Below, in pieces: positions 7,934-30,855 of a DNA stretch of 64,000 nucleotides. Each line of letters begins with the position of its first letter. Position 1 is the stretch's first letter. The stretch is taken from positions 3,342,401-3,406,400 of the forward strand of contig MU004231.1 of NCBI GenBank assembly GCA_010405405.1. Direction: 5' to 3'. The notes under the pieces are model-generated. The model worked only from the letters and a program-made list of their open reading frames with translations, had not been told where the DNA came from and ran no database searches. The stretch comes from Microthyrium microscopicum. Lineage: Eukaryota > Ascomycota > Dothideomycetes > Microthyriales > Microthyriaceae. The translations under genes were made by a program, and so were the position numbers.

Positions 7934-10900
7934 TTAAAGTTTCGATTCGATATCTTCATATTCCGAAATATCCCTGACCGGCCGCAGGCCCAAAGAGGCC
8001 TGTAGACTGGCGCGGAACTCATGGACGTCAGTGATAGTGGTAGCCTTAGCCGCGACTGGAATCACGTCGGTAGTGGCAGGTGTCTCAGTCTTGGATTCGA
8101 TGCCCACACTGGCGAGGACGCTGCCAATTGCAAGTTTTCCTTGTTCAAGAATACCTTGAACGTCTTCCTGCGGCAATCCAGCATCCTCGCGCAGGTACGT
8201 ACCTACGGCACCGAGAACCGCATCAGAATCACCACCCGACAAGTCGACTTTGGCAAAGCGGGCTTTGAGCTTGTCCGCATCGACTGGCATGTTAGACTGG
8301 AAGAGCTGGACGATAAGCGCAACAGTCTTGTCTAGTTGCTCTTCGGGGGTCATGTGTGCAGCAATGGATGCTGGAGTAGCTTGGGCTAGCAAGTGGATGG
8401 ATAATTTCGATCGAGTTTTGGATGCTGGCGAGAGGTACGAGTTGTAAAAGTCGACAATATCGGCCTTGGTGAGCTTCATTACTTCAGCGACATCGGTTTC
8501 GGCTGAAAAGGTTAGCCAAGAACGTCGAATGTTGGAATATCACACGGAAACTTACCCGAGTCAAAAGCAAAAGTCTCTGCGAGGATGTAGCTCATCAGCT
8601 GGATTGATTCATCCTTCAGATTCTTCGGCTTCTCCGATATTTTACTACACAAGCCAGCCTTGTGCTTCTCGAATTTGTTTTCGTCCATATCGCGAATCTG
8701 CTCTCCAAGTTGCACTAAAAAGGCTTCAATGCGACCTTCCAGATAATCGGGAGACTTTTCGCTTTGCACTAGGATGCGATAGCATAGATGGGTAACGGGA
8801 ATAACCGCACCACTAAATACCACGTAGCCAAGTTGTTCTTTGGTCCTGAGTTGATCATAACATGGCTCTTCTCCTATCGACGCAGCAAGAAGAGTCTTAG
8901 CGCGTAGGTTTCGATCCTGGTCGTCCCCTATGGGCAAAACATATTCAATGCAATGATTGACATTTTCCGGGTCCGCCAGAGTTCGTTCATACAGATAGTT
9001 GCTGCCCGGTGGGATAACCAAAGTTCGTCGCATTGGCCATTGAGCTGAGGGAAGTCCTTTTGGTTTCAGAATCGTCTCTACAAGGTCGGTGATGTTACGA
9101 GCATCCTCTTTCGAGAGATTGCCGTGCGCGAGAACCTCAATGTGTAGCTGCTTGAGGAGCTGGGGATAAAAAGCTCGTATATCCTCGACCGTGATGTTTT
9201 GAAGTTCGTTGGCCAATTCATCGACGATAAAAGACCGGTCTTGAGTCAGCCAAGATTTGTATGTTCCCACTTGGTGAAATGGTTGTTTAAAGTGCCAGTT
9301 CTTGTAAACACGTTGAGCTCGCTCTTTGATGATGTCGAATCGATCCTCCTTGACATTAAGCTCTCTCATGGAATGCAGGACTTTCTCTAGCAAAACCGCC
9401 ATTTTATCATTGTATCCAGAAATAATAATTTGGAGACCCAGACCGTTCTGGCTAAGCGAATATTCCAGGCCGGCAATTTCCGCATCGTAAGAGTACTCAT
9501 TGAGAGAATCTTGTACTAAGGAGCAATATAGCTTAGATATCGCAGAGCATCGAGGAGTAATGCTTGATAATGGCGTTCTAAGTGTGATCTTAACGTTGGC
9601 TTTTGGAACCCAGAACTGGTCATCCTTCTTGTACCAGATCCGGACATACTGATCGTTACGAATAAGCTTGGGGGCTATGGCAGGTGTCAAAACTTCCTTC
9701 TTTTCCACGTCAAGTCTAGTGGGGATAAACTCGTTCTTATGGGGTAGGTGGAGTTGAGATGGTCGATCAGCTGAACGCGCTCCTGCAGCATCGATAATCA
9801 TCTTTTTGAAATCCTTCGGCCATGGCTGGTAAGAGTACTCTGTCCCGTACCACGCTTCTTTCTTGTCCCAAGTTCCTGGATAATTTTGGCTTACGACTGT
9901 AATTCTTACATTATCTGGTCGAAGGTATTCCAGGCCTTCTTGGATTTTCGCGGGGGAGAACACTCTGGTCGTTACAGGAGCGCTGAGCAGCTCATCCCTA
10001 GGATAGGGTCTTTGCATCATGCCGCTTAGACGGCTTGCCGTCTTACTAGCACTGCTGTTCTGCTTGAAGCGGAACTCGACCTCTCCGACATTTTTGAGCT
10101 CTTCGAAAACCCATTCCTGTGGTGTACCTTCCCTGAGAAGAGCAATGTACTGAAAGATGACTTTGGCAATCTCCTGGTATTGTATCAAGCCTTCCGCAGT
10201 AAGCGTGACGCGGATATCGAAGTAGGCAGCTCCGGGGCAAAGAGGCAATGAGCCGCAGCTGAGACTATCAGCCCAGCCCTTTTCCTTTAGATAAGCGAGA
10301 ACGCTACCAGGCCCTTCATGTCCAATGAGATGACTCAAGTAGTGCGAAGGGTGGCAATCCCACATATCAGTCTCATCTGGGTAGGGGAAGAAGAAGCTGA
10401 GGGTTCGGACATCAGCAACAGGCTTGGCAAATAATTGCATAAATGAGCCATTCTCTTCGAACAGAGGGATATCATCCCAGCGGTTTTGCTGCAAGTTCTT
10501 ATTGGGCACGTCGGAAAACAGCTCCACAGTCCAGGACTCAAGCTCATCCAAGCTTTCACGACCAAGGACCACAAGCTTCATTCGATTCGCAGAGTAGTGC
10601 TTCTCATAGAAGTCCATAAATCGCGCGCGAAGATCAACGCCTTTAGAAAGCGGGTTGTCGTGCAAAGTCTTCCAATTACCGGTGCTAAAGTGGTTGTATG
10701 GATGCTTTTTATTTGAGACTGACTGAGAGAGTTGGTGGAGGCGCCAAGTATCGGACTGTAAATTCTTTTTGTTCTCCGAGTCTACAGATCGAAGTTCTTT
10801 TTTGAGGGTATCTTCGAGGAATAGTGGTTTCACAAAGAATTGTGCGAACCTGTCCAATGCGCCATACAGAATTGAATCATTGGTTGTTTTCGAGACATCG

Positions 10901-11675
10901 ATCTGAGACGACGCTTTACTATTAGACGGCGTATGAGCTGATGCCGCAACTTCGAAATAGAAATTTGTCGACGTCGCTGCTGTAAATGCATTCGAATATC
11001 CGTTATGCGTGCTAAGATATTGATTGTATTCATTCTCTGATGGAAACTAGACGCAAATCAATGAATTGAAAAGCTTCAAACGAGCGGATTTCCTACCTTT
11101 TCAGTGCCCATGAAAAGCATATGCTCCACCGCATGAGCTAGGCCGGGCATATCCTCGGCATCACTATAGCTACCGACATTGACATCAAGAGCAGCGCTGG
11201 CTTTGTCCGTCTTTGGATCATGGATGAGGAGCACCTCGAGCTGATTTGGCAAAAGTATGACTCGATAAGAGCGGTCGTCGAGCGCGGGCTTCTCGAGAGA
11301 ATCAGTGACTCTGGCGGCCGATACAACGGACTTGTTGTGTATGGGTGCTGTCATAGCAGCAAAAGTACGTCTGGAATTGTTGGTGTATGGCGATGGATTT
11401 GTGGCAACGGGACGAAGATATCGAGGATATGAGGATATTAAAGGCAAAGGCAACGACGACAAGCGTAATGGTGGCGACGCGACAAGGCTGAGGCTCGGGC
11501 GACCACCTGCAGTTTGTGCGGATACGGGTTGACCAGCTCGCAAGGTTGAGTTTGATGCAAACGACGAGACTTGTGAGATGGATGCAAGTGGCGAGCCAGA
11601 TGTTTGTGAGTAGTGGTCGAGTTGTGTTTTCCTCCTCTGCGACCGCCTTACCACACTCGCTGCCAAGGTTCGCAT
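7934..11675 (-). CDS. Insulysin-like M16A metalloprotease (IDE/Ste23 family)
   Basis: Three exons (11675-11097, 11046-8556, 8502-7934) give 1212 residues. The inverted zinc motif HAVEH is at residues 181-185, followed by FPSENEYNQYLSTHNGYSNAF across the first junction, a hallmark of the family. Later segments such as LRTKEQLGYVV and the middle and C-terminal M16 domains are present. Insulysins are zinc peptidases that degrade peptides; yeast Ste23 and Axl1 cut the a-factor precursor. The C-terminus is SKL, a peroxisomal targeting signal type 1 (human IDE ends in AKL). The first 107 residues are Arg/Ser-rich and mitochondrial-presequence-like, and Met108 (codon at 11354) could start a cytosolic or peroxisomal form. 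Length exceeds the usual 1000-1050 mainly because of this extension. Confidence 0.93.
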
Positions 11676-12324
11676 GCAAGGAGAGGCAGTTGGAATTTGG
11701 AATGGCAGCTTCGGGACAGTACGATGACGGGTTGAGCTAGCGCAAGCGAAGTAGGAGGATACCGTAGGGCGAGATGCGATTGAGGTGAAGATGGCGGTTG
11801 CAAATACTAGAAATCGGCGAGGGGAGTCAGAAAGATCTCAAAAGCGGAGAGTAGCTTCTCGTGGGCTGGGGATAGATCACCGGGTGTGGAAATTTGGGGT
11901 TGTATGTTGCTGCCAGCTCAAGGTCAAGGCTGGTGTTGATTTTGTGGATTAATCTGGAAGCTGCCAAGCTGCCCTGGCCTTTCATGAATCAACACCATCT
12001 CCATCTCCCCATCTCCAACAACAACATCCAAATTGTCTGCCATCGCCGTTTGTTGTAAAGTCGTCCATCTTTATCCTGGTCGGTTGGTCTGTCAGGGTCC
12101 AAACCGGTACATCGGACGTACTTGTTCACCTCCGCCTTGTCGCAGGGCTGTCCGCACGAGTTGCAATTCTTACGTCGCTTGTACTCCCTGTGGCCGTTTA
12201 TATGTTCTTAGCCGATTGTCGTACCATCTAGACTCGGTTACTCCGGTTTTGCTTCCTCATCAAGTAGATCTTTGTTGCTCAATTTGACGAGTCTGCCACA
12301 TAACTTTCGCCCTTATCCATAATC

Positions 12325-14037: not shown

Positions 14038-15960
14038 CGTGAACTTATCTCGTGGGACTAGAGTGAAGTGAAGTTGAGTCAGGATCTGGTGAGCTAGTTT
14101 TTTTGACAGTTATGTGAGGCTATATTATCTATTCTTCTTCTATTGATGGAGTTGAACTGTATTTGGTTATAGTAGAGCATATTTGATGGATACATTAAGG
14201 ACTGGATTGTTATCTCTTTCGGTAATTCAGTAATTCGTGAGACCACCGTACTGTCCGTGCTTGAGATCTTTACAGCTATCTATACAGTGAAATCAGTTTT
14301 TCCGTAATGAGTTATGAGAGGGGCAGAGGATTAAGGGAATTATCTAATAAATATCTATTACTCTTCTTTGCTTAGAGTGCCGAGCAAACGGCTTCAATAC
14401 CACTCCCGAAGGTAATACCGATGCCGAATATATTTGAGGAAATATACCCTACGGCTATCAACTTGAAACTTGTTGGAAAGCATGACGTAGAGAAGATACT
14501 CATAGTCTTGGATTTGCGAAGTCTTCGCACACTTGTTCAGGAGTGGCCAGATATGGGAGACGATAGATTGTGGTGTTGAGTACGATTTGTCCTACCAGTC
14601 ACTGAATGAATTTGACCTATTGAGTAGCCATTTCAGGCTTTCTTTATCACCAGAACTTACAAAACATTTATCTTTCTGTAAATCAAGTTCTTATTTGGAG
14701 TTCCGTGAAGCTTGTTGCTAGTGGTAAGTCCTCCATGATTCGAAATCGATTCAGGAAGACGAAAATGAAATTCCATTGAGAGTCACACAAACTATGATTT
14801 TCACTAAACTTTCTCCAAGCTTTTGACAATTAGACACAGCCCAAAGCTGTCGTAATAGTCTTGTTCCAACGCGCGTTCGTTTTGTGGACCGATGAGGAAG
14901 CTATGTGTCTGTGAAAAGAGGGGAGACATCATACTCATATCCTGTTCGAATGGAATCTTGCGTGCAAACTCGCGGTATAGGCTCTCAAGGTTCAATAATA
15001 CAAGTGCTTAGATACTAGAATTTCTCTGTATGAACCCTTCGCGGGATATTACAGGCACGTGTTAATACTTGATTGCCCGATCGAGAGCGAGGGTCTTGAG
15101 GAGAATGCACACTTGCACAAATGCCGAAGCCCCGAAAGCACCAAAAACGGACTTGACCAGGATATACTGGACTTGGCATGAGCTTATTCCAAAAGCCAAG
15201 ATTCATAGTGGCTTTGCAAACCAGTCATTTGGTCCTTATCTTGAACCCTCAGTGGCTGGCACAGCTGGATAGCCGGGGTATTATGCACGATTTGGACCGT
15301 ACCCCGCCTGCTAAGGTCTCCCAAGTCCGGACGACTGAACGGAAGACCATGTGCCGTTGTGCTACGTGTAATTAGAACTGTGCAATAAATATTGACATGT
15401 TACGAAGATTGTAGATAGGTGCATAGCCTACTCATTGGTAGGAGCAAGGGCCGAATGTTTGGAAACAAGAAGCTTTTGCCAGCCACTGCAGCGTCATATT
15501 TCATTTACAGAGTTGACAAGCCCTGCTCGGATCTTGGAAGATGAACTGAAACGCCACATCTATCAGGTGCAGTAACCTCCAAGGTAGTGATGTCAATAGG
15601 GCTAGCTTGCGACCGTTTGCAGAGGCTCGTGGTTACATCCAGCCACGCATTGGTCCATGAATCCATTGCGTGCATTGATACCGAAGCGATTGGTCTCAAA
15701 TTCAAAGTACATTTTCCCTGTGCTGGCTCGGTGCTAAGCAGTATCGAACGATAATAGCCTGCATTATTGGAACAGCGGTGGATAGCCCTGTCTTACAAGC
15801 GCGGAAGCTGTTTATGGCATGCCACTAAGCACCGATTTGATATCCATCTGTCAGGGAGAGCAAATGAAATGACATGCTCTATACATGGGCCCACATATTT
15901 CATGCAAGAGACCAGACCCATTCTTGTTCCAAGGAAGGAGAAAGTTGGCAGACGCTCGGC
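14038..15960. other. Intergenic, 1.9 kb, nothing recognised
   Basis: This is the divergent space between the secreted hypothetical gene (-) and the micro-gene array (+). Open frames here are short, have no recognisable motifs and run in all directions. I see no RNA gene. Confidence 0.35.
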
Positions 15961-15961
15961 G

Positions 15962-15967
15962 TATAAA
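15962..15967 (+). promoter_or_regulatory. TATA-like element upstream of micro-gene copy A
   Basis: TATAAA stands 194 bp before the ATG of the first Cys-rich micro-gene and 112 bp before its leader intron, a plausible distance for a fungal core promoter. A CT- and CAA-rich leader follows, typical of well-expressed fungal genes. This is inference from position only. Confidence 0.4.
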
Positions 15968-16073
15968 GCTTGACGAGTCTGTAGCATTTTTGGCTTTTCG
16001 CACAAAGACATTTCAGCACTTCAAATCAACATCAAATCAATTCTTCACCCTTTCCACCCACAAACTACCTCAA

Positions 16074-16140
16074 GTATGTTCCCATAGCAATGTCACTCTT
16101 GACAATGTCGCGCGAACAATATACTAACCTGTCTCTGTAG
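16074..16140 (+). other. 5' leader intron of micro-gene copy A
   Basis: Donor GTATGT, branch ACTAAC near 16122 and acceptor TAG define a 67-bp intron just before the start codon. Copies B and C have introns at the matching place, which argues for descent from one ancestral gene. Confidence 0.6.
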
Positions 16141-16155
16141 CATCCTCTTGTCAAG

Positions 16156-16248
16156 ATGATCGCCACAATCAAGCCAATCAAGCACACCTGCGGAGAGAGC
16201 TGCGAATGCTGCGGAATCGGTGAATCCTGCGGATGCGTTGTCATGTAG
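16156..16248 (+). CDS. Cys-rich CaaX micropeptide, copy A (30 aa)
   Basis: ATG at 16156 opens a 30-residue peptide. The N-terminus is IKPIKHT. The core has cysteines at 12, 16, 18, 19, 25 and 27 (pattern C-x3-C-x-C-C-x5-C-x-C), and the peptide ends in CVVM. The core is made of two half-repeats, GESCECCG and GESCGC. CVVM is a canonical CaaX box and Met last favours farnesyltransferase. A 67-bp intron (16074-16140, GTATGT, ACTAAC branch, TAG) ends 15 bases before the ATG, which supports a real transcript and this start. Two diverged tandem copies follow on the same strand, so chance is unlikely. It could be a metallothionein-like peptide, a prenylated peptide or a lipopeptide pheromone precursor. 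I know of no exact described match. Confidence 0.7.
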   Translation: MIATIKPIKHTCGESCECCGIGESCGCVVM

Positions 16249-16889
16249 ATACACCATCAAATACAAGACATCAATAACTCCAACATGCTTCCTTCGTGTC
16301 TCGATAACTGAAATAGACAACTGCTCCTCCTTCCTATTCAGCTCCAACTGATCCTTGCTCTTACCGCTCAACGTGGTCGTCTAGCTCCAAAACAAGAAAT
16401 CACGAATCTCAGTCCACCAGTGTCTCCCATCCCTGAAAATTGTACCCTTGACAATCCTTCTTCTCAACGCATTCGCCAACTATCGTGACTCTATCTAACC
16501 TTTGTACTTGTAGTTGTAGGATTGTAGTTGAGAATTCCTCTTGGCACCAAGAAGCCAAGAAAGAGGCACAAACACTAGTGACGTAGCGGGCTTTTCTGAA
16601 CAACGTGTGCACACCGCTCGTGCCCATTTGAAGCTGGTGGTGCATCCATGATACGAGCCTGTGAGTCCAGAACCTTGGAGAGGGTTTGGAGGGTTTTTTG
16701 CCTTGATTTCTATTTTGACCTAGAGTGCATGTGCTTTTCCGAAACCAATTGCCCTCTACTCTACAAATAAATACAATCCCTTCCCCAGCCTCAAACCTTC
16801 CTTCTTCTCACCTTTCAATTCAAAGACAACTTCAATCTCAATCCCAGCGCTTACACAGAAACCACCCAACCAATTCTACTCCCACAACC
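16249..16889. other. Spacer between micro-gene copies A and B
   Basis: This holds the likely 3' end of copy A and the promoter and leader of copy B. The leader from about 16755 is rich in C, T and A, with an ACAAATAAATAC AT-rich core-promoter-like stretch. No further copy or other gene is seen. Confidence 0.4.
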
Positions 16890-16957
16890 GTAAGTCTTAG
16901 CATTTCTTACCCCACCTTTTCACTCGCGGAAAAGACCATTTCAACTAATTGCCGCAG
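16890..16957 (+). other. 5' leader intron of micro-gene copy B
   Basis: GTAAGT donor at 16890, ACTAAT branch-like site near 16943 and CAG acceptor at 16957 define a 68-bp intron that ends 10 bases before the ATG, the same architecture as copy A. Confidence 0.6.
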
Positions 16958-16967
16958 AACCTTCAAA

Positions 16968-17063
16968 ATGCAACCTACACTCATCAAGCCAGTCAAGCAC
17001 ACTTGCCACGAATCCTGCGACTGCTGCGGAATCCGCGAGAGCTGTTCGTGCGTGGTCATGTAA
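16968..17063 (+). CDS. Cys-rich CaaX micropeptide, copy B (31 aa)
   Basis: The 31-residue peptide starts MQPTLIKPVKHT and has cysteines at 13, 17, 19, 20, 26 and 28, with the same spacing as copy A, ending CVVM. Compared with A, the conserved parts are the IKP-x-KHTC segment, ESC-x-CCGI, ESC-x-C and the VVM tail. The intervening residues vary (G/H, E/D, G/R, G/S), as expected for coding constraint around a Cys scaffold. An upstream in-frame ATG exists in the unspliced leader, but the leader intron removes that reading, so I start at 16968. Role alternatives are as for copy A. Confidence 0.7.
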   Translation: MQPTLIKPVKHTCHESCDCCGIRESCSCVVM

Positions 17064-17794
17064 ATCAGCCATACGAGCACGAGTGCGAGCGCGAACGAAA
17101 TGGCGCTGCGTCTGCGGGCATCTGCTGTGCTGCCGATCCTTTTCGTCTAAACAGCCGAGGAGGGCAATTCTAGCTCTGCGAACTACTGAGACAAGGACAA
17201 CACTGTTTATATGATATACCTATAAATGGAGCTAGCTTAGCACGATAATCACACTCCTTCTCGACAAATTGCTATTTTCTGAAGCTGCCATGTTCTAGTA
17301 TACTTGCTAATCCTGTGAGGAGTCAGTGGCTCGACTCGTTCATGCTCTGAAGCATCAGCGCAAATATTATACAAGTCTTCCAATCTCGAATTACCTTCGT
17401 TCATTGGAACAATACACGCAAAATCTATTTCAAGAACATTCCATGGTCCAAGTGTGTCCAATTAATAACCTGGCAAAGGGCAAAGAACAAAGCCACACAC
17501 TGACGAAACACTACACGAATCCTACAGTATCTCCATTGCCTGGTGGATTCAAAATATACAAGCTGTAATGAGGCTACCTGGCTCAGCCTCAATGAACCCT
17601 TCCTTCTCAACAGAACTTGTTGAAGATACATACCTTCTGATATCCTCAATGCAGTTTGAAATATTTTCAACAAACGTCACTGATCATCATTCACACATTT
17701 GTCCAAACAGTTCAGTTAGCAAATACACCCTCGCTAGTACATTGTCAACTTTACGCAAACTTTTTTTCCAATCAACGATTTATATCAAGACCAG

Positions 17795-17854
17795 GTATAT
17801 CCCAACTTAAACACTTGTCTTGTTGTCCTAGATGATTTGTACTAACCTATAAAG
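17795..17854 (+). other. 5' leader intron of micro-gene copy C
   Basis: GTATAT donor at 17795, ACTAAC branch at 17841-17846 and an AAG acceptor at 17854 (or AGAG two bases later) define an intron of about 60 bp, ending roughly 24 bases before the ATG. Confidence 0.5.
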
Positions 17855-17879
17855 AGCTTTTTTTCTTTTCAAAACGAAA

Positions 17880-17978
17880 ATGAAGCCGATAATTTCATCA
17901 CCCGTTAAGAATACATGTTCGGAATCTTGTAGCTGCTGTGGCTGCTCCGAGTCTTGCTCGTGTTGTGTTATAATGTGA
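17880..17978 (+). CDS. Cys-rich CaaX micropeptide, copy C (32 aa, 8 Cys)
   Basis: The 32-residue peptide starts MKPIISSPVKNT and has eight cysteines (13, 17, 19, 20, 22, 26, 28, 29). It keeps the C-x3-C-x-C-C ... C-x-C scaffold but adds one cysteine inside the central loop and one next to the end. Both half-repeats read SESCSC. The tail is CVIM, the same four residues as the K-Ras4B farnesylation box. Codon use is more A+T rich (TGT, TCT, ATA) than in A and B, so this is the most diverged copy. A leader intron precedes it. Roles considered are metal binding, prenylated signal peptide or pheromone-like precursor. Confidence 0.7.
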   Translation: MKPIISSPVKNTCSESCSCCGCSESCSCCVIM

Positions 17979-18192
17979 TGGTTATATCAAAGTACACGAT
18001 TTGACGACTACGGAAGTGGACACCTTTGATTTCATCGAATGAGGATTGACTCTTATTTTGTTGTCCAAACGATGGACAACTTTATGGGCTCATAACGATA
18101 CATACAAAAACTGTTGACCATTCATCTTGGTTATCACATATCAATACATTTCTTTCCAAGATCCTAGCGTTGAAAGCATCGGCACAAATGTC

Positions 18193-20195
18193 CTAGATAT
18201 GAGTTTCTCTCACCTTCCTACCTTCCTCACAGGCCGTAATCTCCAAGCCTTCCAGCTTCCCATCCTCCCTCCAATCCTTAAGCACAGCATGATAATCCGC
18301 AATCCCTTTACCCCAAGCGCCCCTACGCGCAAGCGTATCTTGCACTTCTTGCGGCAAAGTAGCCAGCAGATCCATCTGGCCCTCCGCATTCATATACGAA
18401 GGTGTACATCCCATCATTGCCTTTCCATGAGACGCCATCTGACTGACTCGATAACCCCATTCATCTTCCGCTTCGGCGGTAGGTTCAATTGAAATTGTTG
18501 AGCCATACTTCTTCTGCGCTGTGGTGAGGATGTAGCTGACATGTTGGGCCGTTGAGTCTAGGACGAAGACAAAGTTTGCCGCTGAGCCGGATTGGCTGGG
18601 TCCGTTCTGGAAGAGGTTTGGAAAGTCGCGAGTGACGATCCCTTGTAACATGACTCCGGCTTGTTCACCTAGTTTTTGTGTCATACTATGTCCGCCGCGG
18701 CCGATGATGGTGACGGAGGCGCGGGAGGATGGGTCGGTGTATTTTGATGGACTTTCGTAGCCGGTTGCGAAGATTAGGACGTCGACGGGGTAGTCTTTGC
18801 CTTCAAAGGTGACGCTTTTGGAGTTGATTTTGGAAATGCTTTTGCCGTCTGTGTGGACGAGCGATACATTTGGTTTGTTGAATGCGTCGAGATATTCATC
18901 GTGGAAAGCTGGTCGTTTGCACCATGTTGGATACCAGGGTTTCAGATCTTCTGCTGTTTTTGCGTCTTTGACGATTGATGAGACTCTGGCGCGAACTTTC
19001 TCTTGGTGTGGTATATCTTTCTCGCGGAGTCCTTTGACATGCTCTGCTTCATTTTCGCGTGTCACGGTCCTGGGAGATCCTATGAGAGCATAATAGGTGG
19101 GAAGTGTAGTCCAAGCATCGCCGATCAAATTTGGGGTTGTTGATGGTCTGACTTGCGCGACGCTGGCGTTGAAGTTTTCATTTCGTGCTCTCCACCAGCC
19201 TTTCTGTGCTGACAGTTTTGCCCATTCAGTGGGATCTGTGGTCTTGTTTCCGCGCTCGTTCACTGAAGATGGTGTACGTTGGAAAACAGTCACTTGCTTT
19301 GACCATTTAGCCAGTGCCGGGACGATCTGGATTCCGGTTGCTCCTGTTCCAATGACACCGACTGATTTGTCCTTCAAATTGGTCATGTTAGGATTGCTAG
19401 GAGATCCGCCCGTGGCAGCATAGTCCCAGCGAGAAGTATGAAAGATTGAACCCTCAAAGTCGGAAATGCCTGGAACATTGGGAAGTTTTGGCTTAGAAAG
19501 CACGCCTGTAGAGAGCATGACAAACTGAGAGCGAACAGACACATTAGGGTGTGCATCTTCAGCAAGATTCTTGAAATTGAGAGTCCATTCCTTGGTCTTG
19601 TCGTCCCACATCATGTCTTTCAATTCGTATTTGAAGATCGCTTGGTCGGTCAATCCCCATCTCGTAGCAATAGCATCTGCATGAGCCTGCAATTCTGTCC
19701 CACTGACATACTTTTCTGTAGGCATATAGTCCATCTCTTCGAGTAGCGGCATGTAGATGTAGCTTTCCACGTCACACATGAGTCCAGGATATCGATTCCA
19801 GTACCAAGTTCCGCCAAATCCGCCCGCGGAGTCAACGATATGGATATCCGAAACTGGAATTCCTGCTTCAATCAAGCGGACTGCGAAGAGTAATCCTCCG
19901 TAGCCAGCGCCAATAATCAAGTACTTGAAAGATGCTCCATTGACTGTTCTTTGTGGTACTTTTTGCTGCCATGGATCTTTAGCAAAGCTTTGGAACTTGT
20001 CCGTCTTGGACAGATCGATGTACTGGAAATTTCCATCTTGACGATAGCGTTTCTCTTTTTCTTCGGTGTATTTGCGCTCAATCTCAGCCTGTTTAGTCTT
20101 AGCGAGCTAGATCAAACTTCTCTTGAAAATGGTCCTACCTGGCTGTCTTTTGACACTGCTTCTGCACCGCCTTTTCCAGATTCGTGGTTAGACAT
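18193..20195 (-). CDS. FAD/NADPH Baeyer-Villiger-type monooxygenase
   Basis: Two exons (20195-20139 and 20097-18193) give 653 residues. The first dinucleotide-binding motif GAGYGG is at about 82-87 and the second, GTGATG, at about 269-274. Between them lies FEGSIFHTSRWD (233-244), which fits the Baeyer-Villiger fingerprint FxGxxxHxxxW(P/D). Other family segments are GGTWYWNRYPG and DVLIFATGYES. Such enzymes insert oxygen into ketones or oxidise heteroatoms. The 41-bp intron is short. An alternative acceptor would leave only 32 bp, so I prefer the CTAAG acceptor. No biosynthetic cluster is evident around it, although a GST follows in the same direction. Substrate unknown. Confidence 0.9.
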
Positions 20196-29168: not shown

Positions 29169-30855
29169 ATGGATGATAGAAGTGACTTCTATCAGTATAC
29201 AAGTGGGCGATGGCTGCGGGTACCTGTCTTGTTATTAGAAAGTACATTACTGACCCTCGAGCAGTTACAATGAAACGCTGCGCCAAAAGGAGAGATTCCT
29301 CGCATTCAATGTTCTTGGCCTACAGGATATTGCGGCCAAGGCCATTGGGAAATCAGCTAGTGACGTTGTCAGCTTCCGAAAATTAGCTGAAGGTGGGTTC
29401 AACCGGATCTTTGTCATCGGTATGAATGATGGGCGCGAAGTTATAGCACGGCTGCCGTGTTCAATCGCCTTACCAAGTCGACTCACAGTCGCAAGCGAGG
29501 CCGCAACTATTATGTTTTTGCGATCCCATGGTGTGCCTGTACCAGAAGTGCTAGACTACTCCACGACCACAGAAAATGCGGCTGGCGTTGAGTATATCAT
29601 CATGGAAAAAGCTGCCGGAGAAGAGCTAGGCGACCGCTGGTTCTCTCTTCCAGATCTTGACCGTGCCAAACTCGTCGGTCGGCTCTCGCAGATCGAGAGC
29701 CTGTTATTTTCTATCCCACTTCCGGCTTCAGGTAGTATATTCTACAAGAAAGATTTGGACAGCGCCATTCCGTCGCTCCAGATTTCGAATACAGAGTTTT
29801 ACGTCGGCCCGTCCGTGGAGCAGCGTTGGTGGCACGATCAAAGAGGTGAACTAAATGTTAGTCGAGGTCCCTGTAAGTTATTTCTACGATTGTAACCGCC
29901 TAGCTCATCGAATGCAGTTCGAACCGCTGAGGACTTCCTCACAGCTGGAGCAGAAAAGGAATTGGCTTGGTTAAGAAAGTTTGGAGAGCCTTCCTTCCCA
30001 CCCCGAGAGTACAGAGAATTCACCAATTATCAGCAGTCCGATCCAGCAGAGCAAATCGGGTCCCTTCAGCAATTTTTGCAAATTGCGCGGCATCTCATTC
30101 CTACTAACCCAGAACAGCAATATCTGCTTAAACCCACCCTTCGCCACCCTGACCTGAATCCGCGAAACATTTTCGTAGGCGCAGATCTCAAGATTTCTAG
30201 TCTTATTGACTGGCAGCATTGCTCTGCTGTCCCTCTTTTTCTCCAAGCCGGCGTGCCTAATACTTTCGCTAACTTTGGAGATGAGGACTCTGTACAACTT
30301 AAAAAGCCCGTTTTGGCACAAAATCTCTCAAATATGTCCGCACAAGACCAAGCCCAGGCAATCGAGCTATACCGTCGACAACATCTACATTTCTACTATT
30401 TTGGAGGAGCGTCCAAATTCAATAATGTCCACTACAAAGCCCTGCGGCTCCCGTCAACTGCGCTCAAGCAACGTCTTTGTTTCAATGCTAGCTCGCCATG
30501 GCAAGGAAATCCCATTCCATTAAAAGCAGCTCTAATCCTGGCAACACAAAACTGGGATACGCTGACAGCAGAGTCCACCGAGACAGCTTCAAATTGCCCG
30601 ATTTCTTTCACCGACGAGGAAGCAGCGAGAATTTTGCGGATCAATGCAGCTCAAGATGACGTTGATGAAAAGATTAGTCTGCTCAGGGATGGTATTGGAA
30701 GCGGGGAAGATGGATGGGTACCCATTGAAAATTATGACCGTGCCGTTGCAGAGAATCAAAGACTCAAAGAGGAGCTTCTGAAAGATGTTTCAAACGAGGA
30801 GAGGCGGTTAAGTCTTCAGCATTGGCCATTTGACGAGCATATTTTAGACTGTTGA
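29169..30855 (+). CDS. APH-like phosphotransferase family protein, second paralog
   Basis: I model exons 29169-29215, 29265-29872 and 29918-30855, giving 530 residues, the same as the gene at 549-2284. The start reads MDDRSDFYQYTSGRW. To continue into the conserved LYNE segment, the first intron must begin at a GC dinucleotide (29216) and end at CAG (29264). No GT donor gives the right phase. The second intron (29873-29917) is canonical. The catalytic motif HPDLNPRN is near residue 295, followed by LIDWQH. The end is WPFDEH. If the GC donor is not used, this copy may be impaired at its N-terminus. The substrate is unknown. Confidence 0.75.

Follow-up and report, generated by a model that had tools for sequence, protein, structure and literature searches.

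Three tiny reading frames in the window, the 64,000-nucleotide stretch of DNA analysed here, are, judging by their sequences and together with an unlinked paralogue elsewhere in the host genome, real genes that belong to a conserved family of ascomycete micropeptides. We tentatively propose that they represent an undescribed group of farnesylated, cysteine-rich lipo-micropeptides of filamentous ascomycetes that would act as a membrane-tethered thiolate metal site or as an exported, metal-loaded signal and are possibly widespread, a proposal that we consider plausible and still some way short of probable. The original prediction had described three frames of 30-32 residues on the same strand, about 0.8-0.9 kb apart, with a C-x3-C-x-C-C ... 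C-x-C scaffold and CVVM or CVIM ends. The ORF calls bear this out: genes a, b and c are intact frames of 30, 31 and 32 codons whose starts lie 812 and 912 nt apart (Table 1). The proposed KP-x-K(H/N)TC entry is present in a and b, while c has SPVKNTC. In a and b, the core reads C-x3-C-x-C-C-x5-C and its cysteine block lies 8-15 residues ahead of the CaaX cysteine; in c, a cysteine directly precedes the CaaX cysteine. With the unlinked copy d included, the peptides a, b, c and d contain 6, 6, 8 and 7 cysteines within 30-35 residues, arranged in C-x-C, C-C and C-x3-C pairs.

Table 1. Features of the array, its surroundings and the repeat-bearing CaaX precursors of the host genome. Positions refer to the window unless a locus or contig is named.
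Feature	Position	Strand	Remarks
M16 insulinase-family protease gene, upstream of the array	7934-11837	-	Limits by eye; Pfam match on main exon 8512-11046
TATAAA, possible promoter element	15962-15967	+	Some 110 nt ahead of the donor of the gene a intron
Gene a, predicted 5'UTR intron, 67 nt	16074-16140	+	GTATGT...ACTAAC...TAG; ends 15 nt before ATG
Gene a, 30-residue Cys-rich peptide ending CVVM	16156-16248	+	MIATIKPIKHTCGESCECCGIGESCGCVVM
Gene b, predicted 5'UTR intron, 68 nt	16890-16957	+	GTAAGT...ACTAAT...CAG; ends 10 nt before ATG
Gene b, 31-residue Cys-rich peptide ending CVVM	16968-17063	+	MQPTLIKPVKHTCHESCDCCGIRESCSCVVM
Gene c, predicted 5'UTR intron, 60 nt	17795-17854	+	GTATAT...ACTAAC...AAG; ends 25 nt before ATG
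Gene c, 32-residue peptide with 8 Cys ending CVIM	17880-17978	+	MKPIISSPVKNTCSESCSCCGCSESCSCCVIM
Repeat-bearing CaaX precursor	L044 1294-1512, C7	+	
Repeat-bearing CaaX precursor	L058, C5:781495-781722	-	
Repeat-bearing CaaX precursor	L039 1276-1512, C5	+	

A chance origin of the three CaaX frames is excluded. No other frame in the window ends in C[VIL][VIL]M-stop, and each of the three has at least six cysteines in its last 25 residues. In 100 windows simulated with an order-2 Markov model, such ends occurred at a mean of 0.11 per window and never together with the cysteines. A search of positions 15000-18400 against Rfam at gathering scores gave no match.

The original prediction had further assumed duplicated genes under selection at the protein level, with a scaffold and tail that are kept while the residues between the cysteines vary. 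The pattern of variation holds across the members, and purifying, protein-level selection is shown, as far as coding sequences can show it, by an excess of synonymous over amino-acid change, dissimilar flanks and simulated neutral decay. Between a and b, pS is 0.51 and pN 0.21, giving a dN/dS of 0.28, and the corresponding ratios are 0.18 for b and d and 0.42 for a and d; the alignments are tiny, with about 18 synonymous sites, and single ratios are rough. Gene c is saturated at synonymous sites against a, b and d (pS 1.04-1.14), with pN values of 0.26-0.33. Its DNA-level alignment scores with a, b and d (14, 17 and 20) do not exceed the best of 200 shuffles (23, 20 and 22), and its protein scaffold is still kept. 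The flanks of a, b and c showed no similarity in 12 upstream and downstream comparisons (p 0.17 to 0.99). When gene a was left to decay neutrally in 20,000 simulated runs per distance, scaffold, tail and open frame survived together in 3 runs at a distance of 0.4 and in none at 0.6 or 0.85.

The fourth copy, d, came to light in the host genome (36.9 Mb, 20 contigs) with one of the relatives from other genomes, P0005, as query. This search returned b, a and a match at C1:516096-516167 (-) with an E-value of 5.4e-4, whereas a search with gene b matched only a, b and c, the last at E 3.9e-6. A CVVM-stop that belongs to d lies at C1:516019-516033 (-), and removal of a 50-nt coding intron with GTCCGT, CTAAC and CAG signals yields MEPKTFKPFKPAKPCGCSEGCECCGIEEYCSCVVM, again ending in CVVM. 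Here, too, ACTAAC and TAG occur shortly ahead of the ATG. With the relative P0004 as query, a and b were found in the host genome, and with the d protein d, b and a; neither of these two queries revealed a fifth copy, and gene c was not recovered with P0005, P0004 or d. At this locus on contig C1 (L004 3-401, +), a DnaJ-family gene lies no more than about 1.1 kb from copy d.

Searches for homologues recovered the same scaffold in four relatives and the tail in three of them. Alignment A2, built from the three window frames with some upstream codons, found P0002 (jgi, 36 residues, E 3.1e-5) and P0003 (Venturia inaequalis Vi05172_g489, 43 residues, E 1.4e-4). Alignment A4 (five rows), which took in P0003 and part of P0002, kept 4 of 144 candidates, namely P0002, P0003 and the new P0004 (53 residues, E 2.1e-5) and P0005 (34 residues, E 1.2e-4). 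P0003 ends in CSESCSCCGVSESCSCVVM, P0005 in CGCAESCDCCGLDESCSCVVM and P0004 in CVVM. P0002 matches the core as far as CCGFYES and diverges from there, its gene model lacking a CaaX end; an intron, the frame or the end of the model are candidate causes. Across the family, the signature is C-x-E-x-C-x-C-C-G-x-x-E-x-C-x-C-V-[VI]-M, with an extra cysteine in one copy, c. Its part up to the second glutamate is present in 8 of 8 members (a, b, c, d and P0002-P0005), and C-x-C followed by a terminal V-[VI]-M in all except P0002. N-termini and most residues between the cysteines differ among the eight, P0003 and P0004 having long, Ser/Thr-rich N-termini. By contrast, glutamate at two places and the glycine between the cysteines are invariant in all eight, which suggests, at the level of conservation, a role more specific than bulk metal binding.

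Only these four relatives were found among 5.8 billion predicted proteins, perhaps because the family is narrow or because small genes are poorly annotated. Gene callers easily overlook reading frames that have only about 30 codons, follow a 5'UTR intron and in some cases are interrupted by a further intron, and the family could for this reason be far wider than the annotated handful. The expectation that such genes would be missed is not always true: one relative is annotated in V. inaequalis. Venturia belongs to the Dothideomycetes. In collections that by their descriptions are not fungal, 86 pattern-matched stretches of viral contigs (query A1) and 9 of bacterial and archaeal genomes (query A4) included none that codes for a relative, a result of little weight given the make-up of these collections.

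Donor, branch-point and acceptor signals make a 5'UTR intron just ahead of the ATG likely for each of a, b and c (Table 1). In gene c, the AAG acceptor is unusual and the signals are weaker than in a and b. The left edge of the array in the original prediction, 16074, is not a start codon, as it lies 82 nt before the first ATG; it coincides with the predicted intron donor of gene a. Of the 2364 ATGs in the window (both strands, a, b and c included), 16 carry the intron signature, as do 16 of the 1069 in one shuffled window, a rarity that is only indicative since the signature was defined after the three genes had been seen and c requires the AAG acceptor. We also counted 14 promoter words in the 450 nt upstream of each of a, b, c and d, uncorrected for the number of tests, and none of the metal elements is present in all four. 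The counts for a, b, c and d, in this order, were 0/0/1/0 for an ACE1-like site, 1/0/0/0 for TTTGCTC, 0/0/0/0 for the zinc-response site and 1/3/0/0 for the metal-response core TGCRCNC (0.23 expected each). CCAAT (3/2/4/4, 1.27 expected) and CTTTG (2/2/3/2, 1.56 expected) exceeded expectation in all four genes, GCCARG (0/2/2/5, 0.56 expected) and ACAAAG (1/1/1/0, 0.34 expected) in three. Two upstream 8-mers, AAGGAAGG (a, b, c) and TTCCTTCT (b, c, d), are common to three of the four genes. None of these words and 8-mers is specific enough to argue from.

That the family is undescribed, as had been supposed, agrees with our searches, in which no curated model scored over its cut-off and no description was found in the literature. 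In Pfam, no family exceeded its cut-off for a, b, c, d or P0002-P0005, the HMA domain included, and NCBIfam, a prokaryote-oriented library, gave no match for the five rows of A4. A likeness of b to the spider toxin family D_CNTX (E 0.0011, 19.5 bits, cut-off 27) was rejected as a coincidence of cysteine spacing because it stays below the cut-off, a, c, d and the four relatives have no match, and no hydrophobic leader is visible by eye. Comparison with solved structures gave chance-level matches only (E 0.86 and 1.6). AlphaFold gave no confident fold for b (mean pLDDT 53.3, pTM 0.16), a result that is expected for a metal-free metallothionein and would fit any such short peptide equally well. 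Among the freely accessible journal papers listed, no description of the family was found as far as titles and the beginnings of abstracts tell. File S3 of PMC10569646, according to the accessible part of that paper, holds small CaaX proteins of seven Leotiomycetes and may contain family members. Metallothioneins, CaaX lipopeptides and HIPPs are known kinds; their combination in a family of 30-residue peptides appears to be new as far as we searched.

We favour, as a reading that is only just short of probable, a lipid-anchored, metallothionein-like buffer of metal or thiols at a membrane. Since a, b, c and d have no hydrophobic leader by eye, the peptide would be made in the cytosol. A C-aliphatic-aliphatic-X end with X = Met stands directly before the stop in a, b, d and P0003-P0005 (CVVM) and in c (CVIM). 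The CaaX cysteine would accordingly be a candidate for farnesylation, after which the last three residues (-VVM) would be clipped and the new end methylated, leaving the peptide attached to a membrane from the cytosolic side. The other cysteines, five or more in number, might bind Cu(I), Zn or Cd in a small thiolate cluster or be partly palmitoylated, and the tandem copies would provide a higher dose. Two host proteins of prenylated classes have like ends, CCVVM in a Ykt6-like SNARE with Synaptobrevin and Longin domains and CCTVM in a Ras-family protein. For Neurospora CSR-3, the available part of PMC12561907 states that CVVM is needed for function. Peptides a to d share the dense cysteines and short length of metallothioneins, and none matches a curated metallothionein family in Pfam or NCBIfam; the terms metallothionein-like and farnesylation-type in the original prediction thus describe likeness of sequence. 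If the last cysteine is prenylated, a and b keep only five thiols, a small number for a metallothionein.

Alternatively, the genes could encode secreted lipopeptide signals, precursors of the a-factor type that undergo farnesylation and trimming before an ABC transporter exports them, with genes in tandem as for other pheromones; we regard this as rather unlikely. The host possesses a STE3 receptor gene (C10:1093487-1094384, -; one gene in two matching pieces, best piece E 4.2e-54), and the M16 protease gene about 4 kb from the array belongs to the insulinase family, which trims a-factor in yeast. Against a pheromone role, the 450 nt upstream of a, b, c and d contain no TGAAACA site and, to our knowledge, mating pheromones are not usually five-cysteine peptides. 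Moreover, three other CaaX precursors of the host fit a pheromone better: they have 70-80 residues with three repeats each, which end in CTVM, CSVM or CNVM (for example NADWGSNWQLCTVM, ENEFMHTYWSCTVM and GGGNGQNCTVM). By their sequences, they are possible h-type-like lipopeptide pheromone precursors, and two of them were run against Pfam with no match. Peptides a to d have a single CaaX end rather than the three C(T/S)VM copies, one of them C-terminal, of the h-type. In the accessible parts of the sources, short CaaX-ended precursors match the a-type layout (PMC3068285), CVVM is given among a-factor tails and a Ser/Thr-rich N-terminus, here found only in P0003 and P0004, serves as an a-factor trait (PMC10569646). 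The family resembles the a-factor-type precursors of Sordariomycetes and Leotiomycetes in short length, CaaX end and tail. However, the putative Leotiomycete a-factors in the same accessible text are 45-64 residues long, mostly end in CTVM and show a GY motif in 87 cases, although some lack it (PMC10569646), whereas a to d have 30-35 residues and a cysteine-rich core, and GY before the tail is absent from a-d and P0003-P0005. Trichoderma HPP1 is likewise a small CaaX-ended ascomycete peptide, but carries the motif (LI)GC(TS)VM three times, together with two sites for Kex2, in the available part of PMC3068285, whereas a, b and c lack these repeats and have a single CaaX end; the host genes on C5 and C7 are closer to it, although by eye they have single Lys/Arg after the repeats.

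Other readings appear less probable still. A membrane peptide carrying several lipids, with a farnesylated CaaX cysteine and palmitoylated neighbours, could act as a regulator or competitor for which metal is irrelevant. The C-x-C-V-V-M ends, and C-C-V-I-M in c, do resemble the dual lipid ends of the host Ras and Ykt6-like proteins, yet the C-x3-C-x-C-C block of a and b, 8-15 residues before the CaaX cysteine, seems to be kept more strictly than palmitoylation would need, and we consider this explanation distinctly unlikely. Six to eight cysteines per 30-35 residues and tandem copies, as of the metallothionein CUP1 in yeast, would also suit an ordinary cytosolic metallothionein in which V-V-M does not signal prenylation. 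In 7 of the 8 members, however, C-V-[VI]-M stands unchanged before the stop while the N-terminus varies freely, a contrast that is difficult to understand unless the C-terminus is a signal for processing, and we judge this reading very improbable. The notion that the frames are chance or decayed ORFs could appeal to the first protein-database search, in which a single extended copy as query had no match; it is already contradicted by the homologues, the selection and the lack of any chance expectation, and deserves practically no weight.

The favoured lipid-anchored buffer has the fungal metallothioneins among its closest counterparts, of which the Neurospora-type short copper metallothionein and yeast CUP1 are also very short and cysteine-rich with C-x-C and C-C pairs, CUP1 in tandem. 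They differ from a to d in the order of their cysteines and are not known to have invariant Glu and Gly between the cysteines or a CaaX end. The plant HIPPs share with the proposed peptides the idea of metal binding combined with an isoprenylated CaaX end; according to the accessible part of PMC7504674, they have a heavy-metal-associated domain and occur only in vascular plants, and with no homology seen the analogy is functional at most. Should farnesylation and metal binding both prove true, the family would be a fungal membrane-anchored counterpart of metallothioneins or a new class of lipopeptide signals. It would then also represent a set of substrates of fungal farnesyltransferase that has not been considered and a conserved family that may be lost in standard annotation. 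With the signature, fungal genomes and transcriptomes can be searched directly.

Two of the three neighbouring genes scanned matched Pfam, as an M16 protease and a flavin monooxygenase, neither of which concerns metals. The flavin-binding monooxygenase-like gene (18193-20106, -) lies directly downstream of gene c. Elsewhere in the window, the frames at 606-2284 and 29254-30855 (+) are alike and by eye have the look of aminoglycoside-phosphotransferase-type kinases.
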